A stretch of 64,000 nt of DNA. Origin: Actinomyces qiguomingii. GTDB lineage: Bacteria > Actinomycetota > Actinomycetes > Actinomycetales > Actinomycetaceae. Below are positions 22,177 through 52,084 of this stretch, in pieces. The notes beneath the pieces were generated by a model. The model was not told the DNA's origin and ran no database searches. It was given only the letters and a program-made list of their open reading frames with translations. Made by a program: the position numbers and the translations under genes. Within the stretch, counting starts at the first letter, position 1. The number at the start of each line of letters is the position of its first letter. The stretch covers positions 1,426,001-1,490,000 of the forward strand of contig NZ_CP025228.1 of NCBI RefSeq assembly GCF_004102025.1. The letters are read 5' to 3'.

Positions 22177-22273
22177 CCGAACTCGTTGGTCATATCGACC
22201 GAACTCGTTGGTTATATCTACCGAACTCGTTGGTTATATCGACCGAACTCGTTGGTTATATCTACCGAACTCG
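22177..22273 (-). repeat. 22-bp repeat array A (5 copies, TTGGT subtype)
   Basis: CCGAACTCG starts at 22177, 22199, 22221, 22243 and 22265, an exact 22-base period. The copies are joined by TTGGT(C/T)ATATC(G/T)A. The sense strand of the neighbouring acetyltransferase reads CGAGTTCGGT. Its last copy is 128 bases beyond that gene's stop. There are no spacers between copies. Confidence 0.9.
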
Positions 22274-22401
22274 GCGAACGCGGCCTCAACCGGAAGAGCC
22301 GTGAAACTCCCGGGAAACTTTGTTTGCCGCTACGCCACGTACAGTGTAGTTCCACATCAGCGCGTCGGTCCGCAGGGGATCAGCGGGAGACCAGGCCGCC
22401 G

Positions 22402-23049
22402 CTAGCCCGACGCCGTTTTCACCTTGCGCAGCACCCGGGCGGGCACGCCGCCCACCACAACGCCCGCGGGCACGTCCCGAGTGACCACCGCTGCGGCGGC
22501 CACTATCGCACCGGCCCCGACGCTTACCCCCGGGCAGACGACGGCGCCCGCCCCGATCCACACGTCGTCGCCGATGGAGATGGGGGCGGGCAGCAGCGTG
22601 CCGCGCTCGGCCACCGGCTCGGCGTGGTTGAGGGTCGCCAGCACCACGCGGTGGCCGATCAGCACTCGATCGCCGATGGTGATGCCGCCCTGGTCCTGGA
22701 AACAGCACCCGGCGTTGATGAAGACGTTTTGGCCGATACGAATATTGCGGCCGAAGTCGGTGTGGAATGGCGGCACCAGCCCGAGGGTTCGGTTCACGGG
22801 CGTGCCGGTCAGGCGCGCGAAAAGATCCTGAACCTCGTCGGGGGTGTGGTACGGCCCGTTGAGTTCGGCCGTCACCCGCAGAGCCTCCTGCGTCGCCCTC
22901 CCGGCGACCGCTGCGAGCGGCGAGCCACTGGGGATCGGCAGCCCCGCGGCCGTATGGGCCACAAGGTCCTGTGGGCCGAGGGCGGCGCCGTTGCCCGGCC
23001 GCATGCCCGACGACGGCGCCGCCCCCTGCGGATCAACAGTGGGTGTCAC
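22402..23049 (-). CDS. maltose/sugar O-acetyltransferase (left-handed beta-helix)
   Basis: The 215-residue protein belongs to the hexapeptide-repeat acetyltransferases of the Maa/LacA/NodL group. The N-terminal helical region carries NGPYHTPDEVQ, the active-site histidine is in LATLNHAEP, and hexapeptide coils run from ITIGDRVLIG to GAGAIVAAAAVVT, ending with the VVGGVPARVLRKV tail. It acetylates a sugar or galactoside using acetyl-CoA. A GTG at 23049, 4 bases after the dehydrogenase stop, is chosen; an ATG at 23004 would shorten it by 15 residues. Confidence 0.85.
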   Translation of the reverse strand: MTPTVDPQGAAPSSGMRPGNGAALGPQDLVAHTAAGLPIPSGSPLAAVAGRATQEALRVTAELNGPYHTPDEVQDLFARLTGTPVNRTLGLVPPFHTDFGRNIRIGQNVFINAGCCFQDQGGITIGDRVLIGHRVVLATLNHAEPVAERGTLLPAPISIGDDVWIGAGAVVCPGVSVGAGAIVAAAAVVTRDVPAGVVVGGVPARVLRKVKTASG

Positions 23050-23053
23050 CGGC

Positions 23054-24100
23054 TCAGACCTCAAGCAAGACCTTGATCTCGCGGCGCTCGTCCATGGCCT
23101 TGTAGCCCTCGGCGGCGTCGTCCAGTGGGATACGGGTGGTGAAGACCTTACCAGGGTGGATCTCACCGGCCTGGATACGCTTGATCAGGTCGGGTAGGAG
23201 ACGGCGCACAGGGGCCGGGCCGCCGTGCAAGTGCACCTGGGAGAAGAACAGGCCCAGGCCCTCGATCTGCTGGTCGTGGCTAACACCCACGAAGCCGACG
23301 TAGCCGCCGGGTCGGCAGGAGGCGATGGCCTGGTCCATGGAGACCTGGCTGCCCACCGCCTCGACCACACCGTGGGCGCCGTAGCCGCCGGTCAGCTCCT
23401 TGACCTTGGCGGCACCCTCCTCGCCGCGCTCGGGAATGACCACGTCGGCCCCGAATTCGCGGGCCAGGGCGGCCCGGTCCTCGTGGCGGGAGAAGACGAT
23501 GACCTTCTCGGCGCCGAGAGTCTTGGCGGCCAGCACCGCGGACAGGCCCACGGCGCCGTCGCCGACAACGGCGATGGTCTTGCCGGGCCCGGCCTCGGCG
23601 GCTTCGGCGCCGAACCACCCGGTGCCCAGCACGTCGGAGGCGGCCAGGTAGTCGGCCAGGCGGTCGGGGTCCTCGGGCTCGCCTCCGGGCACGGCCACCA
23701 GCGAGCCGTCGGCCAGTTCCACACGCATGTACTGCGCCTGGGAGCCGGTGTAGTGGCCGGCGTTGGCGCAGCGAGACGGGTAGCCGGCCTGGCAGATCTC
23801 ACAGGTGCCGTCCGACAGCATGAAGGAGCCGATCACGAAGTCGCCGACCTTGAGGGTCTTGACCTGCTCACCGGCCTCCACGATGGTGCCCACGTACTCG
23901 TGTCCCATGGGGCGGTTCTCTACAGGTTCCAGGCCGCGGTAGGGCCACAGGTCGGAGCCGCAGATGCAGGCGGCTGCCAGTTTGATGACGACGTCGGTGG
24001 GCTTGACCACGCGGGGCACTTCCACGTCCTCGACGACGACGTCGTCGGGGCCGCGCATAATCACGGCACGCATGGTCTCGGGCAGGGCGGTGGCAGTCAC
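23054..24100 (-). CDS. zinc-dependent alcohol dehydrogenase family protein
   Basis: The 348-residue medium-chain dehydrogenase has catalytic zinc ligands in CICGSDLWPYRG and GHEYVG, a structural-zinc loop CEICQAGYPSRC with one fewer cysteine than classical enzymes, and a Rossmann motif VVGDGAVG. The GTG at 24100 has an AAGGAG site 5 bases upstream and precedes the conserved MRAVIMRGP. The substrate is unknown. It is co-transcribed with the acetyltransferase (4-base gap). Confidence 0.87.
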   Translation of the reverse strand: MTATALPETMRAVIMRGPDDVVVEDVEVPRVVKPTDVVIKLAAACICGSDLWPYRGLEPVENRPMGHEYVGTIVEAGEQVKTLKVGDFVIGSFMLSDGTCEICQAGYPSRCANAGHYTGSQAQYMRVELADGSLVAVPGGEPEDPDRLADYLAASDVLGTGWFGAEAAEAGPGKTIAVVGDGAVGLSAVLAAKTLGAEKVIVFSRHEDRAALAREFGADVVIPERGEEGAAKVKELTGGYGAHGVVEAVGSQVSMDQAIASCRPGGYVGFVGVSHDQQIEGLGLFFSQVHLHGGPAPVRRLLPDLIKRIQAGEIHPGKVFTTRIPLDDAAEGYKAMDERREIKVLLEV

Positions 24101-24253
24101 GAGAACTCCTTGATTCGGGATGGGCCGGGCGGCATTTGGCACCAAATGCTCCTCACTGCATAGGTTAAGGCCGATTGCCGCCGCTACGCCAGGTATTAAC
24201 AGTGCCTGGAGACGCGCCAGCCGGTGCCGTGCGACCCACGAAACGAGGGTGTG

Positions 24254-25087
24254 CTACCTCTTACCACGCGGCACCGGCAGCACCAGCGGAGTGTCAGTGA
24301 GCGGGTCCCGGATTACGTGAACTTCCAGGCCGAACACCTCAGCAACCAACTGCGGGGTGATCACCTCCCGCGGGGCGCCGTTGGCCAGGATGCGGCCCGC
24401 ACGCATGGCGATGATTCGATCGGCATAGCGGCACGCCTGATTCAGATCGTGCAGCACGGCAACGATCGTGGTGCCCAGCTCGTTATTCAGCTCCCGGCAC
24501 AGCTCCAACACATCCACCTGGTGGGCCAGGTCCAGGTACGTGGTCGGCTCATCCAGTAGCAGCACATCGGTGCGTTGGGCCAGCGCCAAGGCGATCCACA
24601 CGCGCTGCCGCTGCCCGCCCGACAGGGAGGCGACCCGCCTGCGGGCCAGGTCGGTGACATGAGTGCGCGCCATTGCGGCTGTCACCGCCTCGTCGTCCTG
24701 CCTGGACCACTGGTGCAGCAGAGACTGGTGGGGGTAGCGGCCCCGCGCCACCAGTTCGTGCACCGTGATCCCTGCAGGCGCGATAGAGGACTGCGCCAAC
24801 AGCCCCACCCTGCGGGCGAAGGACTTCGGGCGGATGCGCGCGGCATCCTCCCCGTCGAGTAGCACCTGCCCGGAGTCCGGGACGAGCACCCGGCTCAGGG
24901 CGCGCAGCAGCGTGGACTTCCCGCAGGCGTTTGGGCCCACGATCAAGGTCACCTCGCCCGGAGGCACGCGCACACTCAGGTCGGACACCACCGGGTGCTC
25001 GGGATGGTAAGACAGGCACACGCCCCGAGCCTGCAGCTCGCTGCGCCGACTCGGGGCGGCCTGATCCCCGGCGGTCTTGGCGGACAT
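24254..25087 (-). CDS. iron-siderophore ABC transporter ATP-binding protein
   Basis: The 277-residue ATPase is of the FecE/FepC type: Walker A GPNACGKST, signature LSGGQRQR, Walker B LLLDEPTTYLD and the H-loop in AVLHDLNQ. It energises the FecCD-type permeases encoded on the opposite strand at 26.2-28.4 kb. It lies 44 bases downstream of the binding-protein gene. The start at 25087 is set by the beginning of conserved sequence; the ribosome site is weak. Confidence 0.92.
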   Translation of the reverse strand: MSAKTAGDQAAPSRRSELQARGVCLSYHPEHPVVSDLSVRVPPGEVTLIVGPNACGKSTLLRALSRVLVPDSGQVLLDGEDAARIRPKSFARRVGLLAQSSIAPAGITVHELVARGRYPHQSLLHQWSRQDDEAVTAAMARTHVTDLARRRVASLSGGQRQRVWIALALAQRTDVLLLDEPTTYLDLAHQVDVLELCRELNNELGTTIVAVLHDLNQACRYADRIIAMRAGRILANGAPREVITPQLVAEVFGLEVHVIRDPLTDTPLVLPVPRGKR

Positions 25088-25131
25088 GGTGTGTGGCTCG
25101 CCGTTTGTTACCCGGGCCCCGTGACCGGCGC

Positions 25132-26178: not shown

Positions 26179-26196
26179 GTGGTGAGGCTATCCTAA
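26178..26196. promoter_or_regulatory. DtxR/IdeR iron box between divergent siderophore genes
   Basis: On the minus strand the 19 bases read TTAGGATAGCCTCACCACA and match the DtxR consensus TTAGGTTAGCCTAACCTAA at 15 of 19 positions. The site overlaps the binding-protein start codon and ends 6 bases before the permease GTG. One regulator dimer pair could control both operons. Confidence 0.75.
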
Positions 26197-26202
26197 AGAA
26201 CT

Positions 26203-28358: not shown

Positions 28359-29776
28359 TCGGTGCCCAGAGCGGGGCCGAGTGCCGCAATGCGTTCCAGC
28401 AAGGCCTCGACCTGTGGGTCGTCGGTAGCCTGGGGATCGGGCAGATCAATCTGTGGGCTGGGCGGGCGGTCCAGGCGTACATGCGCCCAGCCTATGGAGG
28501 CATGGCGCCGTGTGTGGTTGCAGGCCTCCACCACCCGGCCCCGCAGGGAGGCCCGAGTGCCATCAGGAGCGCGCTGACATGCCGTCTTGACCTGCTCGGG
28601 CCCCACCAGCGGCGCCATCAGGCCTGCTGCCGTAAGCGGTTCGCGCAGACCCGTTGCGGGGGACAGGTCGTGGTAGGCAAGTTCGGCTCTTCGCACCCGG
28701 GGATCGGCCCAGCCCTGCGGGGAGCGTTCGGCCACACGCGCCAGCACCGTGTATTTGATGGCCCAGTCCAGCTCGGTGCTCACCGTCGAGGTATCACCCG
28801 TGCGCAGCGCATCAGTACCGCGCCGTGCTAGATCCATGACTCGCGCCTTCAGACAGTCGCGCTCCTGCTCGAGGGCCTCAAGGCGGATCAGGGCGGTCTC
28901 CAACAGCTGCGGGCAGGTCACCGGTGCCCGCTCAGGCCGTGCACAGGGCGTGAGCGGGTCCAGGCTCCACGCCCGGGCCGCCGCGGCCGGGTCTACCAGC
29001 TCACATTCGGCCAGATCCCACAGCCCCCGTTCGGCCGCGGTCAGGGCGGCGTCCAGGAGCACGACCTTCAGCGCCGTCGTCCAGGGACTTATGGCCGAGT
29101 CCCCGGCCACCACATGCAGGCGACGCCACCGATCGGCGTCGGCATGCGGTTCGTCGCGGGTGTTGATGAAGGCCCGCTCGTGGGTGGGATCATCGGAGGC
29201 CGCCGCGCGGATGTGCTCGGCGCGTGCCGAGTAGCGCAACGGACCTATCGCCCCCGTGAAGTCGGGCTCCTGAGCCGGACCGGGCAATACGCCGGCACCG
29301 GCGAGCACCTGGCGTGCCGCCAGCAGACCTATGAGTCCGCCCAGCGGCAGTCGAGCGTCGCGTGCGACCTGATAGTTCTCGTGGCAACCGAAGGTTGCCC
29401 CCCACCCGTCGGTGTTGGACTTAAGTACGTGCACGCGCACACCGCGCGCAGCCAGGCGGTCATTGGCGGCCTGCGCCATCGCGCACAGTCGGGCGTCCCC
29501 GGCCAGATCCTGAGCGACGACGTCGCTGGTCCACAAGCACTCCGGGCCCGCGAACTCCGGGTGCTGGCCGATGTCCACGTACAGGCGCGCTCCGGAGGTG
29601 GTGAAGCGGTGGGTGCCGCTGGGCACGGAATCGGCGCCGTGAAAGATCTCCTGCACCGCCTCCTCCACGCTCAGCGGTGCGACCTCGTGGACCTGGGTAC
29701 CCAGGTAGGAGCTGGTGACCCCGTACTCGGTCTCAATGCCGACGACGCGGTGTAGGCGCCCCTTAGGGGCGATCAT
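28355..29776 (-). CDS. pafA: Pup-protein ligase PafA
   Basis: The 473-residue ligase belongs to the carboxylate-amine ligase-like Pup ligase/deamidase family. It starts with VVGIETEYGV, carries GARLYVDIGQHPEF and has the nucleotide-binding/metal segment NTDGWGATFGCHENYQ plus NTRDEPHADADRWRRLH. It attaches Pup through its C-terminal glutamate to lysines of target proteins. It overlaps the pup stop by 4 bases (ATGA). The order arc-dop-pup-pafA is the usual one, but the prcB and prcA genes that normally sit between pup and pafA are absent. Confidence 0.92.
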   Translation of the reverse strand: MIAPKGRLHRVVGIETEYGVTSSYLGTQVHEVAPLSVEEAVQEIFHGADSVPSGTHRFTTSGARLYVDIGQHPEFAGPECLWTSDVVAQDLAGDARLCAMAQAANDRLAARGVRVHVLKSNTDGWGATFGCHENYQVARDARLPLGGLIGLLAARQVLAGAGVLPGPAQEPDFTGAIGPLRYSARAEHIRAAASDDPTHERAFINTRDEPHADADRWRRLHVVAGDSAISPWTTALKVVLLDAALTAAERGLWDLAECELVDPAAAARAWSLDPLTPCARPERAPVTCPQLLETALIRLEALEQERDCLKARVMDLARRGTDALRTGDTSTVSTELDWAIKYTVLARVAERSPQGWADPRVRRAELAYHDLSPATGLREPLTAAGLMAPLVGPEQVKTACQRAPDGTRASLRGRVVEACNHTRRHASIGWAHVRLDRPPSPQIDLPDPQATDDPQVEALLERIAALGPALGTD

Positions 29777-29958: not shown

Positions 29959-30004
29959 GGGTTCCTCCTTTAGGTGTCAGGTTGCGGCTGACGGTCGGTG
30001 GTGT

Positions 30005-33578: not shown

Positions 33579-35681
33579 CCATGAGGGCACGATGCGCACC
33601 TGGGCTGCCTTGATCACCGCCGTCACCAGCAGCCCAGGACGCAGCGACAACTCGGCGACCGCGGCCGCCGTTAGCAGGGCGCGCAGCAACTGCCCGTCGT
33701 CCAATTCCAGCACCACCGTCATGAGCCCTCCGCCACCTATCTCCCGCACCGTTGCGCTCAGAGCATTGCGGGGGCTGCCCGCCGGGGCGGACGCGGCCGC
33801 GGAAGCGGTTCCGGGATTGCGGGGATACAGGGCCACCGCCTCGGGCGGCAGCAGCACCAAGGCCGGCTCGCCGCGCCTGAACTCATTCCGTGCGCTCGCT
33901 TCGGCGACCGGGGCGGCCGCCACCTCGGTGCCGTCCGCCAGCCGCAGGAGCGGACGGTCGGAACTTCCGGCGAGGGTGCCGCGCAGCAGCGTCGTCCCGG
34001 TCAGTCGGGCCGTGAACGCGGTCTTCGGGGTGGCCAGGACCTGGGATGTAGGCCCGGATTCAATCACCCTTCCCCGACTCAGTACGGCGACGTCGTCGGC
34101 CAGAGCGGCCACCTCCGCCACATCGTGGGTGACCAGCAAAACCGTCAGTGCGTCACGGGCAGTGCGGCGGGCCAGCAGGGAGCGCAGCTGCTGGCGTGCC
34201 GCCACATCGATGGCAGCGGTCGGCTCATCCAGCACCAGCACCGCGGGACGGGTGGCCAGGGCGCGGGCCAGAGCGACGCGGGCCGCCTGTCCGCCGGACA
34301 GCTCGTCCCCGCGACGTTCCGCCAGATGTGTGGCGCCGACGGCGGCCAACTCCGCGTAGGCAACCTGTCGGGCGGCGGTGCGTGAGGTGCCCAGGCAGCG
34401 TGGGCCGAAGGCGACGTTGTCCAGCACCGACATGTGGGGAAAGAGGCCGGGGGACTGAGCTAGCAGAGCCACGCCGCGACGACCGGCGGGTACGAATCCT
34501 TCCGGGCCGTCCACCACCCGCTCGCCCAGGCGGACCTGTCCGCCGGTGGCATCCAGCAGCCCCGAGACCACGTCACACACGGTGGATTTCCCCGAGCCGT
34601 TGGACCCGATCAGGGCCAGAGTATGGCCGGCCGGAATGCTCAGATCAACGGCCACGTCCCGGGCGGCGCAGGTGAAGCACACGTGCACCGCCCTGCCATA
34701 CGGGACGGGCGTGTCCGCCGGCGGCGACTCCGAGGGAGTGGCGGGGACGTCGTCGTCGTCGGGGACGGCCGTGCCGCTCGCGAGGGCGCCGACGTTGCGC
34801 GCAGGCCGCCCAATTCCGGTCAGACGACGACCAAGGGCGTCCCAGCGTACGCTCGTGGCGCCGACCACCAGGAACGAGGCGGCGATGAGTACCACTGCTA
34901 GGGCCAGGGCGGTGGGGGCGTCGTGCTCCCGCTCCAGGTATACCGCCAGCGGCACGGTGCGGGTGACGCCCTCGCGTGAGCCGGCGAAAGCGATGGTGGC
35001 ACCAAACTCGCCCAGGCTGCGTCCCAGCGCCAGGGCCGTGCCGCGCGCCAGGGCCGGAGCGGCCAGCGGCAGTGTGATACGGGTCAGCACCGTCGTTGGA
35101 CGGGCGCCGAGTGTGCGGGCGATCATCTCCGGGCGGGTGTCGCGCGAGCGCAGAGCCGCCTCCAGCGTGACCACCAGGTAGGGCAGGGAGACGAACACCT
35201 GGGCGATCACCACGGCGGCGGTGGTGAAGGAGATCTGCACGCCAAGTACGTCCAGAAGCGGGCCGAGCAAGCCCCGTTTGCCCAGCGTGGCCAGCAGGGC
35301 CGTGCCGGCCACCACCGGCGGCATGGTCATGGGCAGCACCGCCAGCACCCGGGCCAAGCGCACGCCAGGCCATTCGTGGGACAGCACGATCGCCAACGGC
35401 ACACCCAGCACGACCGCGATGACGGTCGCCAGCAGGCAGGTGCGCAGCGACAGACCCAGCGCTAGACGGGCGGACTGCGAACCGAGCAGTTCGGGCAGCT
35501 GGGCCCAGGCCACGCGGGTGCCCAGGCCGACAAAGGGCAGGATGGTGGCGCAGGCGCCGATGACGGCCAGGAGTACCACCCAGACCGGTGGCTGGGCGCG
35601 GGTAGCCCGCGAACGCCCGGCAGACCGGTGTACGCCACCGGTGCGGGCAGGGACCGCCTCGTCGGTCATCGGTCGGCTCAC
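33567..35681 (-). CDS. modBC: molybdate ABC transporter, fused permease-ATPase (ModB-ModC)
   Basis: The 704-residue protein joins two usually separate subunits. Residues about 30-290 are a ModB-type permease with the GRSLGEFGATIAFAG loop that contacts the ATPase. After a 50-residue acidic/Pro linker comes ModC with Walker A GSNGSGKST, signature LSGGQAARV and Walker B VLVLDEPTAAID, then a C-terminal TOBE-like molybdate-binding region (NALSATVREIGGGG). It overlaps modA by 4 bases (ATGA). It supplies molybdate for the cofactor of NarG. Confidence 0.9.
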   Translation of the reverse strand: MSRPMTDEAVPARTGGVHRSAGRSRATRAQPPVWVVLLAVIGACATILPFVGLGTRVAWAQLPELLGSQSARLALGLSLRTCLLATVIAVVLGVPLAIVLSHEWPGVRLARVLAVLPMTMPPVVAGTALLATLGKRGLLGPLLDVLGVQISFTTAAVVIAQVFVSLPYLVVTLEAALRSRDTRPEMIARTLGARPTTVLTRITLPLAAPALARGTALALGRSLGEFGATIAFAGSREGVTRTVPLAVYLEREHDAPTALALAVVLIAASFLVVGATSVRWDALGRRLTGIGRPARNVGALASGTAVPDDDDVPATPSESPPADTPVPYGRAVHVCFTCAARDVAVDLSIPAGHTLALIGSNGSGKSTVCDVVSGLLDATGGQVRLGERVVDGPEGFVPAGRRGVALLAQSPGLFPHMSVLDNVAFGPRCLGTSRTAARQVAYAELAAVGATHLAERRGDELSGGQAARVALARALATRPAVLVLDEPTAAIDVAARQQLRSLLARRTARDALTVLLVTHDVAEVAALADDVAVLSRGRVIESGPTSQVLATPKTAFTARLTGTTLLRGTLAGSSDRPLLRLADGTEVAAAPVAEASARNEFRRGEPALVLLPPEAVALYPRNPGTASAAASAPAGSPRNALSATVREIGGGGLMTVVLELDDGQLLRALLTAAAVAELSLRPGLLVTAVIKAAQVRIVPSWGRE

Positions 35682-36526
35682 CGGCCGATGGGGGCACCGA
35701 AGCCGTGCTCGGCCAGGATCGCCTGGCCGGCGTCGGACAGGACCAGATCGATGAAGGCCTGTGCGGCGTCGGGGTTCACGGTGTCCCGTGTGAGCGCGAT
35801 CGGGTAGTGGTTGACAACGCGGTTGTCGGGCAGGGAGATGACTTCGACGGCGTCGCCAGCAGCGGCTGCATCGGTGGTGTAGACGATACCGGCGTCGGCC
35901 TCGCCGGATTCAACCTTGCCGCGCACGTCGGTGACTTTCTGTTCCTCAGAAACCGGGGTCAATGTGACGCCGAGCTGCTTGGCGAGGGTTTGGGCGGCTT
36001 CGCCACAGGGCACTTCGGGCGCGCAGATGACCAGGTCGACACCGTCCAGGGAGCCGTCGTTGATGCCGGTCACGCCGGCGGGGTTGCCGGGCGGGACGAT
36101 GAGGGCGAGCGCATTGGTGGCGAACTCGGTCGGCTCGGCGAGCAGAGACCGGCTGGCGGCGTCGTCCATGGTGGAGTTGCTGGCGGTGGCAAGCACATCG
36201 GCCTGCGCGCCTTCGGACAGCGCAGTCACCAGGTCCTGCGAGCCCTGGAAGTCGAAAGTCACGGAGGCGTCGGGATGTACCTGTTGGAACTGCACGGCGA
36301 TGTCCTCGAAGGCATCTTGCAGGGAGGCGGCGGCTAAGACTACGACCTGGCCGGAAAGGCCCGTGTCGGTTGTGGAGGCGCCGGTGGCGGGGGAAGTCGC
36401 ACCTGAGGAGGGGGCGGTGGCGGAGCAGGCCGCAGCCGACAGCGCGGTCAGGAGCGCGGCGGCGCTCAGGGCGGCGCGGCGAGTGCATGGGGCCGTGAGC
36501 GAGTTGCTGCGGCATGACAGTTGCAT
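35678..36526 (-). CDS. modA: molybdate-binding lipoprotein ModA
   Basis: The 282-residue binding protein has a lipoprotein signal (RRAALSAAALLTAL then AAC), followed by a ModA fold: VVLAAASLQDAFEDIA, a FDFQGSQDLVTAL segment and the C-terminal LVLSDAGQAILAEHGFG. It captures molybdate or tungstate outside the cell. The ATG at 36526 has a GAAGGGA site; the frame stays open upstream through repeat and insertion-element sequence but that part is not coding. It is coupled to modBC. Confidence 0.92.
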   Translation of the reverse strand: MQLSCRSNSLTAPCTRRAALSAAALLTALSAAACSATAPSSGATSPATGASTTDTGLSGQVVVLAAASLQDAFEDIAVQFQQVHPDASVTFDFQGSQDLVTALSEGAQADVLATASNSTMDDAASRSLLAEPTEFATNALALIVPPGNPAGVTGINDGSLDGVDLVICAPEVPCGEAAQTLAKQLGVTLTPVSEEQKVTDVRGKVESGEADAGIVYTTDAAAAGDAVEVISLPDNRVVNHYPIALTRDTVNPDAAQAFIDLVLSDAGQAILAEHGFGAPIGR

Positions 36527-36627: not shown

Positions 36628-36680
36628 CGAGTTCGGTCGATATAACCATCGAGTTCGGTCGATATAACCGTCGAGTTCGG
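36628..36680 (+). repeat. 22-bp repeat array B (3 copies, AYGGT subtype)
   Basis: CGAGTTCGG starts at 36628, 36650 and 36672, joined by TCGATATAACC(A/G)T. It is 23 bases left of a 506-bp element with ISL3-like ends and is inverted relative to array C on the other side, which has the same linker subtype. Confidence 0.88.
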
Positions 36681-36703
36681 TCGATATGGTGGTTGCCTAA
36701 ATC

Positions 36704-37209
36704 GGCTCTTCGTGTTTGGGTGTGTGGTCGGCGGTGTGTTCTGGTCGGCCGTGTGACGGCCCCTCCCTCACTCGAACGCAGCCTCCCGTGTTCGAACGCG
36801 GTGCGGCGCCCGAGGACGGGCTTCGCGTGGTTGTTCCGGGCGGCCGCGCCCTGGGGCGCGAGGTGCTGGTTCTTGACATCCATGGGACGGTTTCATCAGA
36901 TGGCCTCACGGGGCAGACGGTTCCTCAGGTGCCACCAACGATTCGGTATGAACAACCACGGCTCGTACAACCCGCCAAACCGCCGAAACAAGCGGCGAAT
37001 CATTGACCGCAACACACGAACCGTCGGGCACGAACCGTCGGGCACGAACCGTCGGGCCAGCACCCGAACTGTCGGGCACGATCCACCGCGAGCCACCAAG
37101 ACTCACGGCGAGCCATCCCGCCGCCGCCCGCCGCGCCCACCGGGACCTACACACAAACCACCACCCACACACCCCGCCCATCCACCACACCCTTCAAACA
37201 CGAAGAGCC
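36704..37209. mobile_element. non-autonomous 506-bp element with ISL3-like ends
   Basis: The left end starts GGCTCTTCGTGTTTGGG and the right end, read inward on the minus strand, starts GGCTCTTCGTGTTTGAAG; both match the termini of the ISL3-family element at 61113. No transposase is encoded between. The 8-base flanks differ, so no target duplication is visible. It is best read as a decayed or MITE-like derivative. Confidence 0.6.
37015..37056. repeat. three tandem 14-bp repeats
   Basis: CACGAACCGTCGGG is repeated three times exactly and followed by degenerate copies to about 37084, inside the non-autonomous element. It is unrelated in sequence to the 22-bp family. Confidence 0.75.
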
Positions 37210-37235
37210 ACAAAACCCGGGGCTTGACAGCACCC

Positions 37236-37301: not shown

Positions 37302-37354
37302 CCGAACTCGATGGTCATATCGACCGATCTCGATGGTAATAATGACCGAACTCG
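37302..37354 (-). repeat. 22-bp repeat array C (3 copies, ATGGT subtype)
   Basis: CCGAACTCG or its variant CCGATCTCG starts at 37302, 37324 and 37346. The nearest copy is 18 bases beyond the narI stop. The 41 bases to its left are shared with the flank of array A. Confidence 0.85.
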
Positions 37355-37372: not shown

Positions 37373-38167
37373 TCAGGCGCCCTGGGAGGGGGTGAGGTCG
37401 TCGGCGCCCTGGTTGCCGGTGCCCTGCGTGTGCACCGGCAACCAGCCGCGGCGCGGCCGCACGGTGGCGGTGGCGCCCGGGCGGGAGCGGTAGACCACGT
37501 AGGGCCGGGTCACATACCCCACCGGCGCGGAGACCGCGTGGACGAGTCGGGTGAAGGGCCAGACGGCGAACAGCAGCAGGCCCGCCACCACGTGCAGTTT
37601 GAACACCATGGGCACGTCCGCCATCAGTTCCGGGGCCGGATGCAGGGCGAAGATCGACCGGAACCAGGGACTGATCGTCTCCCGGTAGTCGTAACCGCCG
37701 TCGGCGCCGCCCAGCAACTGTGTGGACAGCGTCGCCCACGCACCCAGGCACACGGGCACCGCCAGCAGCACGTACATGAAGATGTCGTTGCGCGTGGTCG
37801 CCAGGCGCACCGACTTGACCACGATGCGCCGGTAGAGCAGTCCCGCCAGACCCACCAGGGTCATCAGCCCGGCAATCGATCCGGGGATCACGGCCATGAG
37901 GTGGTAGATGTGCTCGGGGACACCGGCCGCTTCGGTCCAGCTCTTGGGGATCACCAGGCCCATGAAGTGCCCCAGCGCCACCAGCAGGATCCCGAAGTGG
38001 AACAGGGGGGATGCCCAGCGCAGGATGGCCGACTCCTGCCACTGCGAGGAGCGGCTGGTCCACCCGAACTGGTCGGTGCGGTAGCGCCAGATCAGTCCCG
38101 CCGCCAGCAGGACGAAGGACGCATAGGGCAGGGCGGTCCACAAGACCGCCGACTCGAAGGTGCTCAT
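37373..38167 (-). CDS. narI: respiratory nitrate reductase gamma subunit NarI
   Basis: The 264-residue diheme cytochrome b membrane subunit takes electrons from menaquinol and passes them to NarH. It has five membrane segments and the histidines expected for two b hemes, in FHFGILLVALGHFMGL, IYHLMAVIPG and LHVVAGLLLFAVWPFTRLVHA. Its start overlaps the narJ stop (ATGA). It is the last gene of narGHJI, with a 22-bp repeat array beyond its stop. Confidence 0.93.
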   Translation of the reverse strand: MSTFESAVLWTALPYASFVLLAAGLIWRYRTDQFGWTSRSSQWQESAILRWASPLFHFGILLVALGHFMGLVIPKSWTEAAGVPEHIYHLMAVIPGSIAGLMTLVGLAGLLYRRIVVKSVRLATTRNDIFMYVLLAVPVCLGAWATLSTQLLGGADGGYDYRETISPWFRSIFALHPAPELMADVPMVFKLHVVAGLLLFAVWPFTRLVHAVSAPVGYVTRPYVVYRSRPGATATVRPRRGWLPVHTQGTGNQGADDLTPSQGA

Positions 38168-44376: not shown

Positions 44377-44493
44377 CGCGGGTCCTTGGCGGTGTGGCTG
44401 GAGGTATGGGCGGAACTTGGAGCGGTGTGATGAGTCGGCCGGGCCGCCGATTCAGTGTGGCTGGGACGGCGACGGCGTCGTCGTCGGGGGGTG

Positions 44494-45822: not shown

Positions 45823-46165
45823 GGTGCTGTGACTCCTGGGGGTAGGGGGCGAAGTAACAGTGAGTTGACCGGGCGTGACCCCGACGTTGTCCGCGGGGGT
45901 TGGTCCGCGGGGTGATTGGTGATTCCCGCATGATGCCCGACCGGGCAACGGGTCGGCGACCGGAGAATCTTTCGGCTGGAATCAGGCCGACTGCACCCCA
46001 TATCTTTTTTACGGCGGATTCCGTAATAAGGAAGATGGTTGTGAGCTAATAGGCGGTGGTGGGCCGTGGCCCACGGTCGATGGGCACTGGGGAGGGCGGT
46101 TGCGGGAGCGCGGTGGAATACGGGTGGGCGGATGAGAATCGCCCTCGCCTACTACCGTGGTCGGT
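45823..46165. promoter_or_regulatory. narK / mogA divergent region with an 18-bp inverted repeat
   Basis: TTACGG-cggatt-CCGTAA (46009-46026) is a perfect 6-base inverted repeat preceded by CCCCATATCTTTTT. A related CCCCATATTTTA-TTACGG stands at 53600-53616 before the nirK unit. No FNR-type TTGAT-ATCAA site was found. A regulator common to nitrate and nitrite genes is possible. Confidence 0.45.
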
Positions 46166-46759
46166 ATGAGTCGAATGACGCCCCATCACTCCAACTCCGG
46201 CTCGGCGGCAGAGCCTTCCAGCACAACGCGGGTGGTTCCTGTACGCCAGAAGGCTCTCCACCCATTGCCGGTGCCGGTAAGTGGCGCCGTCATCACCGTC
46301 TCCGACCGCTGCGTCAGCGGGAAGCGGGAGGATGTCTCCGGGCCGCTGGCCGTGCGGCTGCTGCGGGAGCACGACGTCGTGGCCGATGCCGTGAAGGTGG
46401 TTCCCGACGGGGTGGAGTCGGTGCGTGCCGCCATTGAGGATGCTGTTGCGGGCGGTGCCCGGGTGGTGTTGACCACCGGTGGCACCGGTGTCACTCCGCG
46501 CGACCTGACCCCCGAGGGCACCGCGCCGCTGCTGGCGGTGCGGCTGGAGGGTATTGAGGCGCAGATCCGCGCCTACGGACTGACCCAGACGCCGTTGTCG
46601 AGTCTGTCGCGCGGGCTTGTGGGGGTGACCAGTCGCGATGCCGATGGTGCGCTGGTGGTCAATGCCCCCGGGTCGCGCGGCGGTGTTAAGGACACCATCG
46701 CCGTGGTGGGGCCTTTGGTTCCGCACATTCTGGAGCAACTCGGCGGCGGTGACCACTGA
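46166..46759 (+). CDS. MogA/MoaB-family molybdopterin adenylyltransferase
   Basis: The 197-residue protein activates molybdopterin by adenylation before metal insertion. The conserved core starts at GAVITVSDRCVSGKRED; it has VVLTTGGTGVTPRDLTPEGT and the C-terminal NAPGSRGGVKD. An N-terminal extension of about 38 residues is polar and unconserved. The start may be this ATG or a GTG at 46157; neither has a good ribosome site. The sequence does not separate MogA from MoaB, so no symbol is given. Repeat array D begins 14 bases after the stop. Confidence 0.88.
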   Translation: MSRMTPHHSNSGSAAEPSSTTRVVPVRQKALHPLPVPVSGAVITVSDRCVSGKREDVSGPLAVRLLREHDVVADAVKVVPDGVESVRAAIEDAVAGGARVVLTTGGTGVTPRDLTPEGTAPLLAVRLEGIEAQIRAYGLTQTPLSSLSRGLVGVTSRDADGALVVNAPGSRGGVKDTIAVVGPLVPHILEQLGGGDH

Positions 46760-46773
46760 ATCCGCCTCCCCTC

Positions 46774-46848
46774 CGCCGAGTTCGGTCGATGTGACTGCCG
46801 AGTTCGGTCGATGTGACTGCCGAGTTCGGTCGATGTGACTGCCGAGTT
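46774..46848 (+). repeat. 22-bp repeat array D (4 copies, GCAGT subtype)
   Basis: CGAGTTCGG starts at 46774, 46796, 46818 and 46840, joined by TCGATGTGACTGC. It is inverted relative to array E, which has the same subtype; together they bracket the AbiEi-like gene. Confidence 0.9.
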
Positions 46849-46946
46849 CGGTTGCCGCCGTCCACAGGAGTACTTCAGAGCAGCCCCGTGCTTTGGCATT
46901 CACAGGCGTTCGTCACCGAGTGGCTCCGTTCCTGCACCCTGTCCTC

Positions 46947-48092
46947 ATGAACAACAGCATGTCTTGTCATAACCCTTCACAAGCCATCCCGCCGGTGTTG
47001 GTGCGACGCTCTACTGTGGGGCGCAGTCTGCTGGAGGCCGGTGTGGTTTCCGGCCGGCTCACCCAGATCCAGCGGGACACCTACGTGCACGTCGCACATG
47101 ACGCCGCGGTATGGGAGCAACAAGCGGCCACGCACAACGCAATGCTCGAAGCCTTTCGGGTGGATGCCCTCAAGGGGGTGGTTGTGCTCGAGAGCGCAGT
47201 TCTGCTGCACGGCGGGGCGACCTGGCGCACGCCGCAATCGCTGCACCTGGCGGTGCCTTACCGCCCCACCGGCCTGCGTCGCCCTCCGACGCGGCATGAC
47301 CCCACGCGTCCTCCTAGCCGAGACCTCCATCCTCTCGATCGCCGTCGGGCACTCGCGTCACGCCCCATCACTCGACACCGCTTTCCAATCCCCGAGGACG
47401 ACATCATTGTAGTTGGAGGGCTGAGAGTCACCAGGATCGAACGCACTATTGAGGACTGCGCGCGTTTCCTCGAACCGGACGCGGCAATGGTCGCCGTCGA
47501 CTCCCTGTTCGCGGTGGTCACCGGTGCCATGCCGCTCAACTCCAGCGGGCGGCAGGGCGCCGACGTCGTCGACCGCCCCTGGGATCGCGCCGATGAAATC
47601 AACCGAGAAGCGAACGCCTTACGCGCGCGAGTCATGGCGCGGTTGGATGGACGCCGTCGTGAGCGTGGGGTAAGGCGAGCCCGTGCCGTGATCGAGGCCG
47701 CATCCCCCTGGAGTCAGTCGCCATATGAGACGGAGCTGCGTCGGATCTGCCTGGCCAATGGGATCATTGCGCCTACGCCGCAGATGCCGCTGCACACCGG
47801 AGCGACCACCTTCTACGCGGATCTCGGCTGGCGGGAAGTTCGCAGAGCTGCGGAGGTTGACGGCATGATCAAGCTGGCGAACGGCGTCGACGCCGTGCTT
47901 GCGAGGAGAGCCGCGCGTGATGAGGCATTCGCGGAATGCGGTTTCGAAGTAGCCCATTTCTCCCCGGAAGAGGTGCGAGATACCGACGGTGCACTGAGCA
48001 TGCTGCACATGCTGCTGCCGCGCACGGCATGCGAAGAACGCCCGATCAGCGGGCTGAGGACGAAGCGAGAGTTGCGTCGTCTAGCCGGGTGA
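46947..48092 (+). CDS. AbiEi-like protein with a possible nuclease-fold C-terminus
   Basis: The 381-residue protein has an N-terminal winged-helix region (VGRSLLEAGVVSGRLTQIQR, then DTYVHV) and middle segment VVGGLRVTRIERTIEDCARF as in AbiEi/type IV antitoxin-like proteins common in actinobacteria. The C-terminal part (YADLGWREVR, AEVDGMIK, then ARRAARDEAFAECGFEVAHF) resembles a DUF559-like PD-(D/E)XK fold. No partner nucleotidyltransferase (AbiEii) lies beside it. It interrupts the molybdenum-cofactor genes and is bracketed by inverted repeat arrays. The ATG at 46947 begins the conserved part. Function unknown; defence or conflict role is an inference. Confidence 0.65.
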   Translation: MNNSMSCHNPSQAIPPVLVRRSTVGRSLLEAGVVSGRLTQIQRDTYVHVAHDAAVWEQQAATHNAMLEAFRVDALKGVVVLESAVLLHGGATWRTPQSLHLAVPYRPTGLRRPPTRHDPTRPPSRDLHPLDRRRALASRPITRHRFPIPEDDIIVVGGLRVTRIERTIEDCARFLEPDAAMVAVDSLFAVVTGAMPLNSSGRQGADVVDRPWDRADEINREANALRARVMARLDGRRRERGVRRARAVIEAASPWSQSPYETELRRICLANGIIAPTPQMPLHTGATTFYADLGWREVRRAAEVDGMIKLANGVDAVLARRAARDEAFAECGFEVAHFSPEEVRDTDGALSMLHMLLPRTACEERPISGLRTKRELRRLAG

Positions 48093-48136
48093 CCATTTGG
48101 CAGGCAGCGGCGGCGATGCGTTGAGCGTCATATCGA

Positions 48137-48233
48137 CCGAACTCGGCAGTTATATCGACCGAACTCGGCAGTCATATCGACCGAACTCGGCAGTCATATC
48201 GACCGAACTCGGCAGTTATATCGACCGAACTCG
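48137..48233 (-). repeat. 22-bp repeat array E (5 copies, GCAGT subtype)
   Basis: CCGAACTCG starts at 48137, 48159, 48181, 48203 and 48225, joined by GCAGT(C/T)ATATCGA. The last copy overlaps the 3' end of mobA. Confidence 0.92.
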
Positions 48234-48911
48234 AGGATGGGGGTGGGAGGCGTAGGCACGGATGTCCGCCCAGGTGTCCAGGTCGCGGGCGACGTGTGCG
48301 AGCTTTTCTCCTCGCTTGGAAAGCTCGAGACGGATCAGATCCATGCCGCCCAGCGTCCGTCGCACCGCCACATCCCGAAGTGCCGCGCCTCCCGGCGCAA
48401 CCCGCTCCGCCAGTGCGGCAGTCCGGTATATGCCCAGCAGGTACTGGACCTGGCCGTGGTCTACGGCGCAGGCTCCGTCGGCACCCGCGTGATCCTCCAG
48501 CTCTTTCGCCAGCGCTGGCAGGGCGCGCCACGCCTCTGGCGCATCACAGGTGACGACGGCGGTAAGCGGTGCGGGCACGTCCGTAACCGTCCCGCTCATT
48601 GTCTCCTCCGATCCATTGCCGGAGACGGTCGTGCTGAGCCGCGCCAGTCCGGCCGCTATTCCTGCCACAGGTCCGCCTAAAGGGGGATCTTCGAGGGCAC
48701 GTAGTACCCCGGGTGGGACCAGCACGCTCTCAGGGGCCACTACGACCACTTGACCGGGCGGCAGCCGGTCCCGTACGAATGCCACTCCGTCCAACACATG
48801 GTCGAGCAGACGCGCCCCGCCCACGACCACATCCGGCTTCGACGCTCCGTCCAGGCGTCGCGCGGTGCCCCCGGCCAGCACGACGACGTCCAGCCGCTCA
48901 CCTGTTGTCAA
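48216..48911 (-). CDS. mobA: MobA-like molybdenum cofactor guanylyltransferase
   Basis: The 231-residue nucleotidyltransferase begins VVVLAGGTARRLDGASKPDV, the GTP-binding start of MobA, and has CDAPEAW in place of the usual CDxP metal site. It would attach GMP to molybdopterin to make the MGD cofactor that NarG needs. The last five residues and stop (RVRSI then TAA) are encoded by repeat array E, so the native 3' end may have been replaced. It is coupled to the moeA-moaC fusion (ATGA overlap). Confidence 0.85.
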   Translation of the reverse strand: MTTGERLDVVVLAGGTARRLDGASKPDVVVGGARLLDHVLDGVAFVRDRLPPGQVVVVAPESVLVPPGVLRALEDPPLGGPVAGIAAGLARLSTTVSGNGSEETMSGTVTDVPAPLTAVVTCDAPEAWRALPALAKELEDHAGADGACAVDHGQVQYLLGIYRTAALAERVAPGGAALRDVAVRRTLGGMDLIRLELSKRGEKLAHVARDLDTWADIRAYASHPHPRVRSI

Positions 48912-50866
48912 GAGAGCTCCTGCCCGGCCCCGTCCGGGGCATTCGCCTCCACGATGTTGCCCGCATCGGCGCCATCCGGCCGCACCCAGTCACCGGAGCG
49001 GCCCCCGGACTTGGCAATCACTCTTGCCTCGCGCAGCGCCACCTCCCGGTCTACGCCCTTGACCATGTCGATCACTGCCAGCCCGGCAACGGTGACTGCG
49101 GTGAGCGCCTCCATCTCCACTCCCGTGCGGTCGGCAGTGCGCACCGTGGCCTCTACGCGCACACCGTCGTCGGTGACCTGAAGGTCCACCTGGCAGCCGT
49201 GGATACCAATGACGTGCGCCAGGGGGAGCAGATCAGGCACCTTCTTGGTGGCAGCTATGCCTGCTACGCGTGCCACTGCGAGCACATCCCCCTTGGGTAC
49301 GGCATGGTCCCGCAACGCCCTGATGATCGCCGGCGAGCACGCCACGAAGGCCGTGGCGGTCGCGGTGCGGACGGTGGTCCGCTTCCCCGACACGTCCACC
49401 ATCCGGGCGGTGCCCGAGGAGTCCAGATGCCCGAGGCGGAGGGCCGCCTCTGTTCGTGGGGACGCGGCGGACGGGGCCGGCCTTGAGGATTTGGCGACGG
49501 GGGGCCCATATGCGGGTGGCAGCGGCCCTGCGGGCGATGACAGTGGGAGCAACAGCACCTGGTCGCCCGCCGCGACGGCGTCGTCGTCGGTCTCCACGAC
49601 TGCCAGTGCCTGCGCCGTCGGCAGTGAGGCGACTAGGTGGGAGCCCGATCCCAGGTAGTGCGACGGTGCCACCCAGATACCTCCCGGTAACGCTCCGGTG
49701 GGAAGCGGCTTCGGCGGGGCGACGAAGCGTACCGGCACATACTGGCGGCGCCGGCGCGGGCTGCGCCAGCCGACGGCGGCCCGCGCCCTAGTCAGCCGTG
49801 TTTCCCCGTCCCGGGAGCCGCGCCCGCGGGTGGTGTCGTGGCCGGACAGCCGGGCTAGGGCGGGGGCGACGATCGTCGTAAATGACACCAGCACGCTCAC
49901 AGGATTGCCGGGCAGTCCTATCACCGGCACCAGGCGCCCGTCCCGGGCACGCACGGATCCGTAGCCCTGGGGCTTGCCCGGCTGCATCGCAACCGCGGCC
50001 GTGGTCAGTTCGATGTCGTTCCCGGCGGGGCCATCTGCCTGCCCGCGTGCGGCGGCCAGTGCGGTGAATGGATCAAAGGCCCCCGCCGACACGCCCCCGG
50101 AAGTAACGATCAAGTCGACGTCGATGGCCGCCTCGCGCAGGGCATCGGCCAGTGCCGCCGGAGTGTCGGCGCTGCGTAGGACGGCTACGAGTCGGGCACC
50201 GTGCTCGCCCACCAGTCCCGCCAGCATTGGGCCGTTGGAGTCCGGGATGGTGCCGGCTGCGGGCTGGCGACCCGCCTGTGCCAACTCTGCGCCCGTGACC
50301 ACGACGGCGACTCGGGGGCGCGGCACCGCTCGTACCATCCGGTGGCCTGCGGAGGCGGCGGCCGATACCGCGGTGGCCTTCAATACGGTCCCGCTCTTCA
50401 ATACGGTTTGGCCCGCCGCCACGTCCTCACCGGCTTGCCGCACGTTGGTGCCCGGGGCGACGGCGGTGCGAACCTCTACCTGCCTGGGCAGCGGTACAGC
50501 CCCGGGCGGCTGATCGGTGTCCTCTACCCTGACAACCGCATCGGCTTGCGCGGGCAACATGGCGCCGGTCATGATCCGCTGCGCGGTTCCCGCGGCCAGC
50601 GGTTCCGGAACCGCCCCGGCGGGCACGTCACCCATCACCGGCAGGATTACGGGGGCATGCATGGCCCCGACGACGTCGGCCGCGCGCACCGCGTAGCCGT
50701 CCATGGCCGAGTTTGTCCAGGGGGGTACTGGTGCGGCGGCCGGCACATCCTCGGCCAGGACCAGACCGTGGGCCTGTTCCAGCGGGACCTCGACCGGGGC
50801 GAGCGGCGTCAGCGCAGCGAGCACCTGGGCGAGGTAGTCCTCGGGCGGCAGCATGGTTGAGGTCAT
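48908..50866 (-). CDS. fused MoeA-MoaC molybdenum cofactor enzyme
   Basis: The 652-residue protein combines two steps. Residues 1 to about 410 are MoeA, the molybdate insertase: NSAMDGYAVR, IMTGAMLPAQADAVVRVED, TSGGVSAGAFDP and GLPGNPVSV. After a Pro/Ala-rich linker, residues from about 471 are MoaC, cyclic pyranopterin phosphate synthase: LGHLDSSGTARMVDVSGK, KGDVLAVARVAGIAATKK, TGVEMEALTAV and DMVKGVDRE. The MoaC LCHP motif reads LAHV, a change in the substrate-pocket region that keeps the histidine. MoaC normally works with MoaA (52.1 kb). The start is the first ATG of the conserved MoeA sequence. Confidence 0.9.
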   Translation of the reverse strand: MTSTMLPPEDYLAQVLAALTPLAPVEVPLEQAHGLVLAEDVPAAAPVPPWTNSAMDGYAVRAADVVGAMHAPVILPVMGDVPAGAVPEPLAAGTAQRIMTGAMLPAQADAVVRVEDTDQPPGAVPLPRQVEVRTAVAPGTNVRQAGEDVAAGQTVLKSGTVLKATAVSAAASAGHRMVRAVPRPRVAVVVTGAELAQAGRQPAAGTIPDSNGPMLAGLVGEHGARLVAVLRSADTPAALADALREAAIDVDLIVTSGGVSAGAFDPFTALAAARGQADGPAGNDIELTTAAVAMQPGKPQGYGSVRARDGRLVPVIGLPGNPVSVLVSFTTIVAPALARLSGHDTTRGRGSRDGETRLTRARAAVGWRSPRRRRQYVPVRFVAPPKPLPTGALPGGIWVAPSHYLGSGSHLVASLPTAQALAVVETDDDAVAAGDQVLLLPLSSPAGPLPPAYGPPVAKSSRPAPSAASPRTEAALRLGHLDSSGTARMVDVSGKRTTVRTATATAFVACSPAIIRALRDHAVPKGDVLAVARVAGIAATKKVPDLLPLAHVIGIHGCQVDLQVTDDGVRVEATVRTADRTGVEMEALTAVTVAGLAVIDMVKGVDREVALREARVIAKSGGRSGDWVRPDGADAGNIVEANAPDGAGQELS

Positions 50867-51079
50867 TGAGGAGTCCTAATGATGCGATCGTGCAGTTGTG
50901 ACGGGGGCGGGCGGAGTGGGGAGAAGGCGTGTCGACCGGAACATCATGCCCTGTCGCCGCAGTGGGGTGGGACCGTGGCAGGCGGCTGGCGTGTAACCTC
51001 CTCAGCGCCCCAGTGCCGCATCCTTTGGCCGCGCCGCGGCCCATTCGGAGATTCTGCGACTTGCGAACAGGAGACCACA

Positions 51080-51568
51080 GTGACCCAGACCAATCCGTTC
51101 CCCGGACATGTCGAGGACGTCGCCGACGTCGGGACGTCGTCGCCCCGGGCCCTGGTCATCTGCGCCGACGTCACCCCGGAGCCGATCGACACCGCTCGGC
51201 TCGCCGACGCCGTCGCGGATCCGGCGGCCGGCGCCGTCGCCACCTTCGATGGCAGGGTCCGCAATCACGACGGCGGGCGTGGGGTCATCGCTATCAACTA
51301 CGCGGCGCACCCCAGCGCGAATGCGGTCATCGCGGGGATCGCAGCCGAGATCGCCGACCGCCCGGGGCTGCGGAAGGTGTGCGTCATGCACCGTGTGGGA
51401 GATCTGGCCGTGGGGGACACGGCGTTGGCGGTGGCGGTTAGTGCCGATCATCGTGTCGCCGCCTTCGACGCCGTGCATGACATCGTTGAGGAGGTTAAGA
51501 CGCGCCTGCCCGTCTGGAAGCAGCAGTTGTTCACAGACGGTTCCAGCACCTGGTCGAATCTGCCCTGA
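51080..51568 (+). CDS. moaE: molybdopterin synthase large subunit MoaE
   Basis: The 162-residue protein, with the small subunit MoaD, converts cyclic pyranopterin phosphate to molybdopterin. Family segments are GAVATFDGRVRNHDGG, the CVMHRVGDLAVGDTALAV strand pair and the catalytic VKTRLPVWKQQ with the active-site lysines. A GTG at 51080 has an AGGAG site 7 bases upstream and is the chosen start; about 25 residues precede the core. It is transcribed opposite to its neighbours moeA-moaC and moaD. Confidence 0.92.
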   Translation: MTQTNPFPGHVEDVADVGTSSPRALVICADVTPEPIDTARLADAVADPAAGAVATFDGRVRNHDGGRGVIAINYAAHPSANAVIAGIAAEIADRPGLRKVCVMHRVGDLAVGDTALAVAVSADHRVAAFDAVHDIVEEVKTRLPVWKQQLFTDGSSTWSNLP

Positions 51569-51608
51569 TCCTGCCAGATCCTGCACGGTAGATCCGCTGT
51601 CCACCGAC

Positions 51609-51938
51609 TCAGCCACCCGCGAAAGGAGGCAGGACGTCCACCCGATCGCGCTCGTGCAGCTCCGCCAGTGAATCGGCCGGAGTTGAGAGCGAATTGATCA
51701 GGTAACTGGATACGCCGATCACCTTGGCCATCTCCAGGCCACGCCCGGCCAGAAGCTCACGCAACCCTGCCAGGGTCGTGCCGGTAGGCAGCTCCAGCCT
51801 CTCCTCGGTGCGACCGGCGGCATCTGCCGCCGCGGCGAAGTAGTGCACCTCGATGGCTATGGTGTCGGTGGCATTTGTGCTTGTGCGGGTCTCGACGGTG
51901 TCGGCCAAGCGTTTCTCCTTGTAGTCGTCTGCGCCCAA
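51609..51938 (-). CDS. moaD: molybdopterin synthase sulfur carrier MoaD
   Basis: The 109-residue ubiquitin-fold protein ends in the required double glycine (LPPFAGG), which is thiocarboxylated to deliver sulfur to molybdopterin. The core VHYFAAAADAAGRTEERLEL and VLPPF are typical. The N-terminal 28 residues are polar and may be untranslated; a start inside them is possible. It is convergent with moaE, stops 40 bases apart. Confidence 0.9.
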   Translation of the reverse strand: MGADDYKEKRLADTVETRTSTNATDTIAIEVHYFAAAADAAGRTEERLELPTGTTLAGLRELLAGRGLEMAKVIGVSSYLINSLSTPADSLAELHERDRVDVLPPFAGG

Positions 51939-52053
51939 TGATTACTGCCGCAGGGCGGTCACCGGAGGCGGTCTTAAGTGTTGACCTTATAACCGCGGAT
52001 GCCGCGGTCGCCATGTCGGGCCTTCGGCGCTGGCCGACAGCCTGCCACTTCAA

Positions 52054-52084
52054 CCGAACTCGATGGCTATAGAAGGCGAACTCG
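52054..52084 (-). repeat. 22-bp repeat array F (2 degenerate copies)
   Basis: CCGAACTCG at 52054 and gCGAACTCG at 52076, 22 bases apart, 22 bases beyond the moaA stop. There is no inverted partner nearby, so it may be a solitary or empty site of the family. Confidence 0.65.

Follow-up and report, generated by a model that had tools for sequence, protein, structure and literature searches.

Phased tandem repeats at gene borders in Actinomyces qiguomingii and its relatives: possible sites for a boundary or roadblock protein

What are the short, evenly spaced tandem repeats that recur between genes in a 64,000-nucleotide stretch of the Actinomyces qiguomingii genome, and what might they do? This stretch, hereafter called the window, covers C1:1426001-1490000 of the host genome, G000, a single contig of 3,988,549 bases. 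A preliminary description made from its letters alone reported six dispersed intergenic arrays, here A to F (Table 1), in which a constant core, a linker and the sequence ATATCGA recur at exactly 22 bases, and did not recognize the family. A search of the window with CCGAACTCG-N6-ATATCGA, allowing up to three mismatches, yields 16 matches, compared to a mean of 0.38 and a maximum of 2 in 100 dinucleotide shuffles. Fifteen of these fall within arrays A-E and one is solitary, at 29721 with three mismatches; array F is out of reach at this threshold. Tandem Repeats Finder also reports a period of 22 for arrays A-E. The six positions stand, except that D is corrected to the coordinates in Table 1 and F holds only one intact core, the second being GCGAACTCG. 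The core is not fully constant, in that C holds one CCGATCTCG core, and ATATCGA is not invariant, as ATATCTA occurs in A, ATAATGA in C and ACATCGA in D. Five-letter linkers are uniform within A, C, D and E as described, whereas B has both ATGGT and ACGGT.

Allowing up to two mismatches, the unit is matched 437 times in G000 and its reversed control not at all. The arrays are therefore not chance clusters, and a dispersed, intergenic and exactly phased family is supported genome-wide. Read in the sense direction, the unit is (Y)CGAG-N-Y-CGG-T plus 12-13 more bases, with a step of 22 or 23. Outside the positions imposed by the search, the T at position 10 carries 1.8-2.0 bits in all of the seven species shown except G053 (1.2 bits), and columns 12, 16 and 19 of the unit are raised in G000 and G051. 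A feature that goes beyond the preliminary description is that only the 9-10 base core is conserved, while linkers, and even the step (22 or 23), vary by species. For example, beyond the moaA stop codon the core CGAGATCGG recurs every 22 bases in both G047 and G044, joined by linkers that are quite different, which indicates that the core alone is the conserved part. The core itself has dialects, with TT in G000, AT in G047 and G044, GT or AT in G051, and AC in G041 and G046. One form dominates across dispersed loci, namely CGAGTTCGG in G000 (158 of 205 units), CGAGATCGG in G047 (125 of 130) and CGAGACCGG in G041 (27 of 27). These dialects argue for a trans-acting reader, yet an enzyme that spreads the repeats would also be a reader.

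The spacing between cores is strict. Among steps of 10-60 bases, genic ones included, 112 of 120 in the G000 sample equal 22 and five equal 23, which represent a real subtype. The two lengths are nearly balanced in G051 (24 steps at 23 and 22 steps at 22, n=47). In G047 there are 88 at 22, 11 at 44, two at 33 and singles elsewhere, and within the range of 18-26 the 88 steps at 22 compare with one at 23 and one at 18. Neighboring linkers of equal length in this genome differ at five or more of 13 bases in 37 of 47 cases, and the step is still 22. Recent slippage therefore cannot account for the step, and we infer that its constancy reflects selection on helical phase. Because the step holds while linkers diverge, the earlier proposal that proteins would line up on one face of the helix remains the best reading of the strict step, with binding itself as a prediction. 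The 13-base linkers recur between loci, which argues against an array of clustered regularly interspaced short palindromic repeats (CRISPR; cas genes were not searched). By eye, linkers in G047 and G046 tend toward an A-B-A-B alternation that gives a 44-base super-unit.

Outside the host, a generic two-unit pattern has at least one match in 36 of 49 Actinomyces genomes and at least 24 tandem pairs in 19 of them (controls total one), with 576 pairs in G047, 514 in G000, 362 in G051 and 330 in G044. The narrow pattern used initially matched 12 of the 49. A scan of named genomes with a sister dialect returned 26 stretches, all 26 from Actinomyces. When 396 genomes of the order were searched with a three-unit, 22-step pattern (one mismatch), eight matched, comprising four Actinomyces and four simple or GC-rich repeats as judged by eye; the reversed control matched three of the same 396, and the pattern matched none of 28 other Actinomycetaceae genomes. 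On a tree of one protein from 25 genomes, the array label requires six changes; near contrasts on it are G012 with 172 tandem pairs and G008 with 2, and G041 with 82, G046 with 198 and G054 with 2.

The view that the family is unrecognized is upheld in part. No match to the Rfam 15 covariance models occurs in the window at the gathering score, five loci searched at E <=10 give five weak matches with none on an array, and array E with its flanks matches no plasmid or phage record. What was overlooked is the flank of an ISL3-type miniature inverted-repeat transposable element (MITE) at A and C, as are the orientation of arrays with respect to genes and the palindromes of G041, both described below. 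A viral scan returned two contigs, one of which is a short simple repeat. The other contig (56% GC) has a four-unit 22-base tandem at 2543-2634 with the core CGAGATCGG and identical linkers, which may or may not be kin to the Actinomyces family. A literature search of limited coverage, reaching few subscription papers and only the openings of abstracts, found nothing on these repeats. The arrays are a large feature of many Actinomyces genomes, unnamed as far as we have searched.

Placement relative to genes was scored in an 864-kb sample of G000, consisting of the window, which had itself been picked for its arrays, and 40 stretches of 20 kb, and in stretches of other species, some of which were selected in G051, G046 and G041 for arrays already known in them. 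Gene borders were drawn with a purpose-written simple codon-usage caller, not a standard tool, and MITE-borne arrays were told apart by a flank expression in G000 only (19 of 49; another rule gives 20 of 70, including targeted loci). Of the non-MITE arrays in six species, 2 of 117 lie inside coding sequence, and the tail is closer to a gene than the head in 95 of 115 (P 7e-13). Taken by species, this polarity is significant in G000, G047 and G051, and not in G044 or in G041 with G046. The arrays keep close to the edges of gaps; 46 arrays are in convergent, 53 in codirectional and 16 in divergent gaps. Where the tail adjoins a gene 3′ end, the stop codon is no more than 60 bases away for 25 of 37 arrays in G000 and for 19 of 27 in G047, and tails at 5′ ends are mostly at least 48 bases off. 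A strict 3′-end rule, drawn from the window, was dropped because arrays also lie in divergent gaps and show no significant sense preference in codirectional ones.

Many arrays face each other. The 11 inward pairs of G047 span 21-851 bases with no gene inside, and its outward pairs are far apart, at 1,193 bases or more. Inward pairs in G000 span 435-6,557 bases and enclose genes in 6 of 12, besides the D-E pair, while its outward pairs span at least 4,588 bases with one exception of 76. Between the arms of the pairs inspected are MITE-like elements, insertion sequence remnants or a gene; B and C flank an ISL3-type remnant, and D and E an AbiEi-like gene. At several places in G047, a short element with the ends GGTGTTGCACATGGGAGC ... 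GTGCAACACCC lies between inward arrays.

Gene 3′ ends that bear an array have weaker hairpins in two of three species. The best 45-base window in G000 gives -16.3 kcal/mol at 26 such ends, compared to -23.8 (convergent) and -21.6 kcal/mol (codirectional; P 5e-6) at array-less ends; the difference is also found in G051 (P 0.0025, 9 ends) and is borderline in G047 (P 0.066, 19 ends). In these three genomes, the 15 bases before the array are 65-73% pyrimidine, compared to 50-51%. Arrays thus do not show the stable hairpin of an intrinsic terminator (the T-run was not scored), close inverted pairs being the exception. One gene end carries nothing but arrays in G046 and G041, and at the same end the array-less G050 and G061 have what by eye is an ordinary, strong and symmetric hairpin.

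The explanation that we favor, with a probability of roughly 0.4, is that the arrays are genus-specific, chromosome-wide phased sites for a predicted DNA-binding protein and act as a boundary or roadblock terminator. Each unit would be a site of two patches: CGAG-N-Y-CGG-T, which is nearly fixed, and a weaker one roughly a helical turn away. Repeated in tandem, the units would expose one face of the helix at intervals of about two turns, allowing several molecules of a single protein to sit side by side. With its tail to the gene and its head into the gap, an array at the gap edge, often one of an inward-facing pair, might when bound form a polar boundary. At gene 3′ ends this would be a roadblock for RNA polymerase that replaces the hairpin terminator; elsewhere, it may shield the gene from whatever transcription or element activity arises in the gap. 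The arrays do not in general show RNA structure, and this, together with the weaker hairpins and pyrimidine-rich lead at array ends, favors a DNA-bound factor over a purely selfish repeat. A more far-reaching version, in which the arrays are protein-read punctuation whose species dialect co-evolves with one binding protein, marking gene borders and taking over from hairpins as polar roadblock terminators and insulators, seems rather unlikely to us. Eukaryotic TTF-I and Reb1 are examples of roadblock terminators. Such terminators are the subject of a review (PMC10310618). The role proposed for the arrays, in which a DNA-bound protein would halt polymerase at 3′ ends, is of this kind, but no protein was found for them and they also occur in divergent gaps.

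Several observations weigh against a boundary or roadblock function. No binding protein was found. The 16 arrays in divergent gaps are unexpected for plain terminators, arrays in codirectional gaps are sense in 31 cases and antisense in 22 (P 0.27), and in G044 the tail is at a 5′ end in 9 of 12 arrays. Beyond the head of the array, the deficit in hairpin strength reaches significance in G000 alone (P 0.003, compared to 0.46 in G047 and 0.28 in G051), and AT-rich linkers may explain part of the deficit within arrays. Among the 49 Actinomyces genomes, 30 have seven tandem pairs or fewer. Conservation of intact arrays is weak when counted strictly by species pairs (P 0.04 to 0.51), arrays of other species taken as the starting point are shared at 4 of 25 and 2 of 11 orthologous ends, and at one locus an array separates the otherwise close pair G041 and G046.

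Around the molybdenum and nitrate genes of the window, the same gene ends bear arrays in several species despite differing linkers and steps. Arrays lie past the mog gene in five of seven species (four of six relatives), with a step of 22 in G000 and 23 in G051, G053, G056 and G058. They also lie past moaA in five of seven when degenerate copies are counted (G000, G051, G053, G047 and G044), near mobA in five of seven, where some copies are decayed, and in the narI-modA gap in all seven, one of which has lone cores only. This recurrence, set beside the weak strict counts and sharing, indicates that positions are partly kept and partly turned over. A comparison of the sisters G012 and G008 for an empty site found a region with one array, at a site that differed by other insertions. 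For the strict pairwise count, the orthologous-end checks and the G041/G046 and G012/G008 comparisons, and likewise for the G041 palindromes and the arm-linker test below, units were listed or highlighted with a loose core (CGA followed by A or G), which matches antisense units too. Two artefacts are ascribed to this core: the 3′ end of the gene at 47016-48092 was scored as array-bearing in the pairwise count, and one G000 pair with a gap of -54 entered the arm-linker test. The orthologous-end check for gene A covers 25 of 26 genomes, with G006 omitted because its match was split.

Alternatively, the arrays could be selfish repeats like the repetitive extragenic palindromic (REP) family, spread via some enzyme or by replication slippage plus template switching, that land harmlessly past stop codons or upstream of promoters and have no host role. 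We regard this as the main rival, only a little less probable than the boundary reading. It is favored by the recurrence in G041 of perfect 70-base palindromes, the minimal form of a pair, each with an 8-base loop between arms of two units. The three stretches inspected hold five of them, and the gaps concerned include convergent, codirectional and divergent ones. Among the matches listed for G041, at least 10 inverted pairs with equal linkers are 8 bases apart, seven with the same linker. In a separate test, the linkers of both arms are identical in 5 of 6 G041 pairs. Both results also fit selfish spread. Arm-to-arm matching of linkers is clear for these close pairs (P 0.04) and is not shown elsewhere (P 0.96 in G047, 0.85 in G044, 0.16 in G051, 0.16 in G000 and 1.0 in G046). 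Copy number changes fast, as seen in the array gained or lost between G041 and G046, and both the inward pairing and the distance of tails from most 5′ ends are consistent with tolerated insertions. Against such an origin, the Y1 transposase (PF01797) of REP-associated tyrosine transposases (RAYT) is found in 0 of 20 Actinomyces genomes, 12 of them array-rich, while the control matched in 5 of the 14 named genomes; this search covered Y1 alone. In addition, stand-alone arrays reveal by eye no conserved terminus or target duplication, and diverged arrays retain the 22-base step.

Two known kinds of repeat come nearest. REP sequences and bacterial interspersed mosaic elements (BIME) of enterobacteria and pseudomonads are present in many short dispersed intergenic copies, often near gene 3′ ends, and are species-specific and arranged in inverted pairs. 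The arrays likewise comprise hundreds of short dispersed intergenic copies with species-specific sequence and inverted pairs, but they are direct tandem units on an exact 22-23 base step, in genomes of which the 20 searched lack a RAYT. Iterons of plasmid origins are head-to-tail direct repeats, such as the tandem 22-base repeats of R6K, and the arrays share this arrangement at a spacing of about two helical turns. However, they lie at hundreds of chromosomal gene borders rather than at one origin, and array E has no plasmid match (Rep genes were not searched). REP/BIME are thus nearest by distribution and iterons by geometry, and the likeness breaks down on RAYT for the former and on location for the latter.

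We consider it improbable that the arrays act at the RNA level, as hairpins in the transcript that terminate it or shield its 3′ end. Close inverted pairs in G041, G044 and G046 do form very strong hairpins: the five G041 palindromes with 30-base flanks fold at -83.6 to -96.0 kcal/mol, and one pair each in G044 and G046 has a fold z of -7.5 and -10.4 relative to shuffles. Solo arrays also beat shuffles in G051 (z -3.3, n=10) and, to a mild degree, in G000 (-1.7, n=33), whereas those of G047 are no better than shuffles (0.03, sense, n=21) and those of G044 hardly so (-0.57, n=6). A possible stem in the unit lacks covariation, with seen versus expected pairings in 492 units, all with the CGAG core, of 416 versus 416.7 (positions -1/10), 104 versus 105.6 (-2/11) and 352 versus 327.1 (-3/12). 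The sequence CCGANNTCGG is a partial dyad, and for want of covariation an RNA hairpin within the unit was dropped as a candidate.

In the host there is a well-supported second layer, in which an ISL3-type MITE carries the array and spreads it. Of the 49 arrays with intact cores in the G000 sample, about 19 have the flank of this MITE-borne class (class I) and 30 do not; in the window, it is present at A and C and absent at B, D, E and F. The element that holds a class I array measures about 520-750 bases, with the array toward its right end. Among seven copies displayed, the ISL3-like left end GGCTCTTC is present in all seven and the right end GGAAGAGCC is exact in one, has one mismatch in four and is broken in two. 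An 8-base target duplication is clear in two of these (2432127 and 526179), partial at 463490 and not seen in four. Of 20 class I copies, 6 have exact GAAGAGCC where the right end is expected, and one of the six has a longer array. G000 also contains ten full-length ISL3-family copies, all 1,448 bases long and alike in score and in their ends, which resemble those of the MITE, and with an exact 8-base duplication in nine; no core is found in the outer 400 bases at either end of the ten (the middle was not scanned). Given these findings, the simplest view is that an ISL3-type MITE carries the class I arrays as passengers. They sit inside such an element, with GGCTCTTC on the left and GAAGAGCC or a near form on the right, but this frame covers only about 19 of the 49 arrays, and stand-alone arrays lack it. 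MITE copies in G000 (for example, C1:2282386-2283200) hold a second tandem of 19-base units like TTGGACCGCGTTACTGCGG and its inverse. A partial ISL3 transposase match is present at 62140-62439 of the window (G000:C1:1488140-1488439), and the ISL3-type remnant at 36703-37212 contains a 14-base tandem, CACGAACCGTCGGG, at 37015-37057.

Repeated end sites that bind a transposase are known from Tn7, Mu and IS21. That all arrays are such ends of a mobile element is very improbable, because although their inward orientation, the other sequence or genes between arms, and the MITE-flanked arrays of G000 with intact ISL3 copies of like ends and 8-base duplications would fit, the full-length ISL3 copies carry no core in the outer parts scanned, stand-alone arrays have no conserved outer ends by eye, and no transposase is among the genes scanned, which cover four arm pairs with one gene per pair, the families searched being Y1 in 20 genomes and ISL3 in G000.

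Table 1. Arrays and neighboring features in the window. The strand of an array is that on which CGAGTTCGG reads in the sense direction.
Feature	Position	Strand	Remarks
MITE-type segment around A	22027..22300	+	AAAGTGTCCAGAATCGG ... GAATCTGGGCAATTT ... array ... CCGGAAGAGCC right end; common to other G000 copies; left limit not fixed
Array A	22177..22273	-	5 cores, step 22; class I, within MITE-type sequence
Array B	36628..36680	+	3 cores, step 22; tail toward 5′ side of modA-like gene (35678-36526)
ISL3-type remnant between B and C	36703..37212		GGCTCTTCGTGTTTGGG ... CAAACACGAAGAGCC; limits by eye
Array C	37302..37354	-	3 cores (one CGAGATCGG), step 22; narI stop 18 bases away; class I flank at head side, no MITE right end seen
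narI (Nitrate_red_gam)	37373..38167	-	tail gene of array C
mog/moaB-type gene (MoCF_biosynth)	46271..46759	+	tail gene of array D
Array D	46777..46851	+	4 cores, step 22; directly after mog/moaB-type stop codon
Gene between D and E	47016..48092	+	358-residue protein; no Pfam/NCBIfam match; weak AbiEi-like match; reciprocal best matches in G053, G056 and G058
Array E	48137..48233	-	5 cores, step 22; overlaps mobA 3′ end; faces D, same linker subtype as D
mobA-like gene	48216..48881	-	tail gene of array E
Array F	52054..52084	-	one intact and one degenerate core (GCGAACTCG), step 22; beyond moaA stop
moaA	52107..53195	-	tail gene of array F; moaD-like gene (51609-51938) next, same direction

If the arrays are boundary sites, then a bacterial genus would end transcription at many genes via a dedicated DNA-bound factor, and the dialects would let factor and sites be traced as they co-evolve. 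If they are selfish, they would constitute a family akin to REP whose spread does without the known REP transposase. Under either reading, the comparison of array-rich with array-poor species offers a direct route to the responsible gene.

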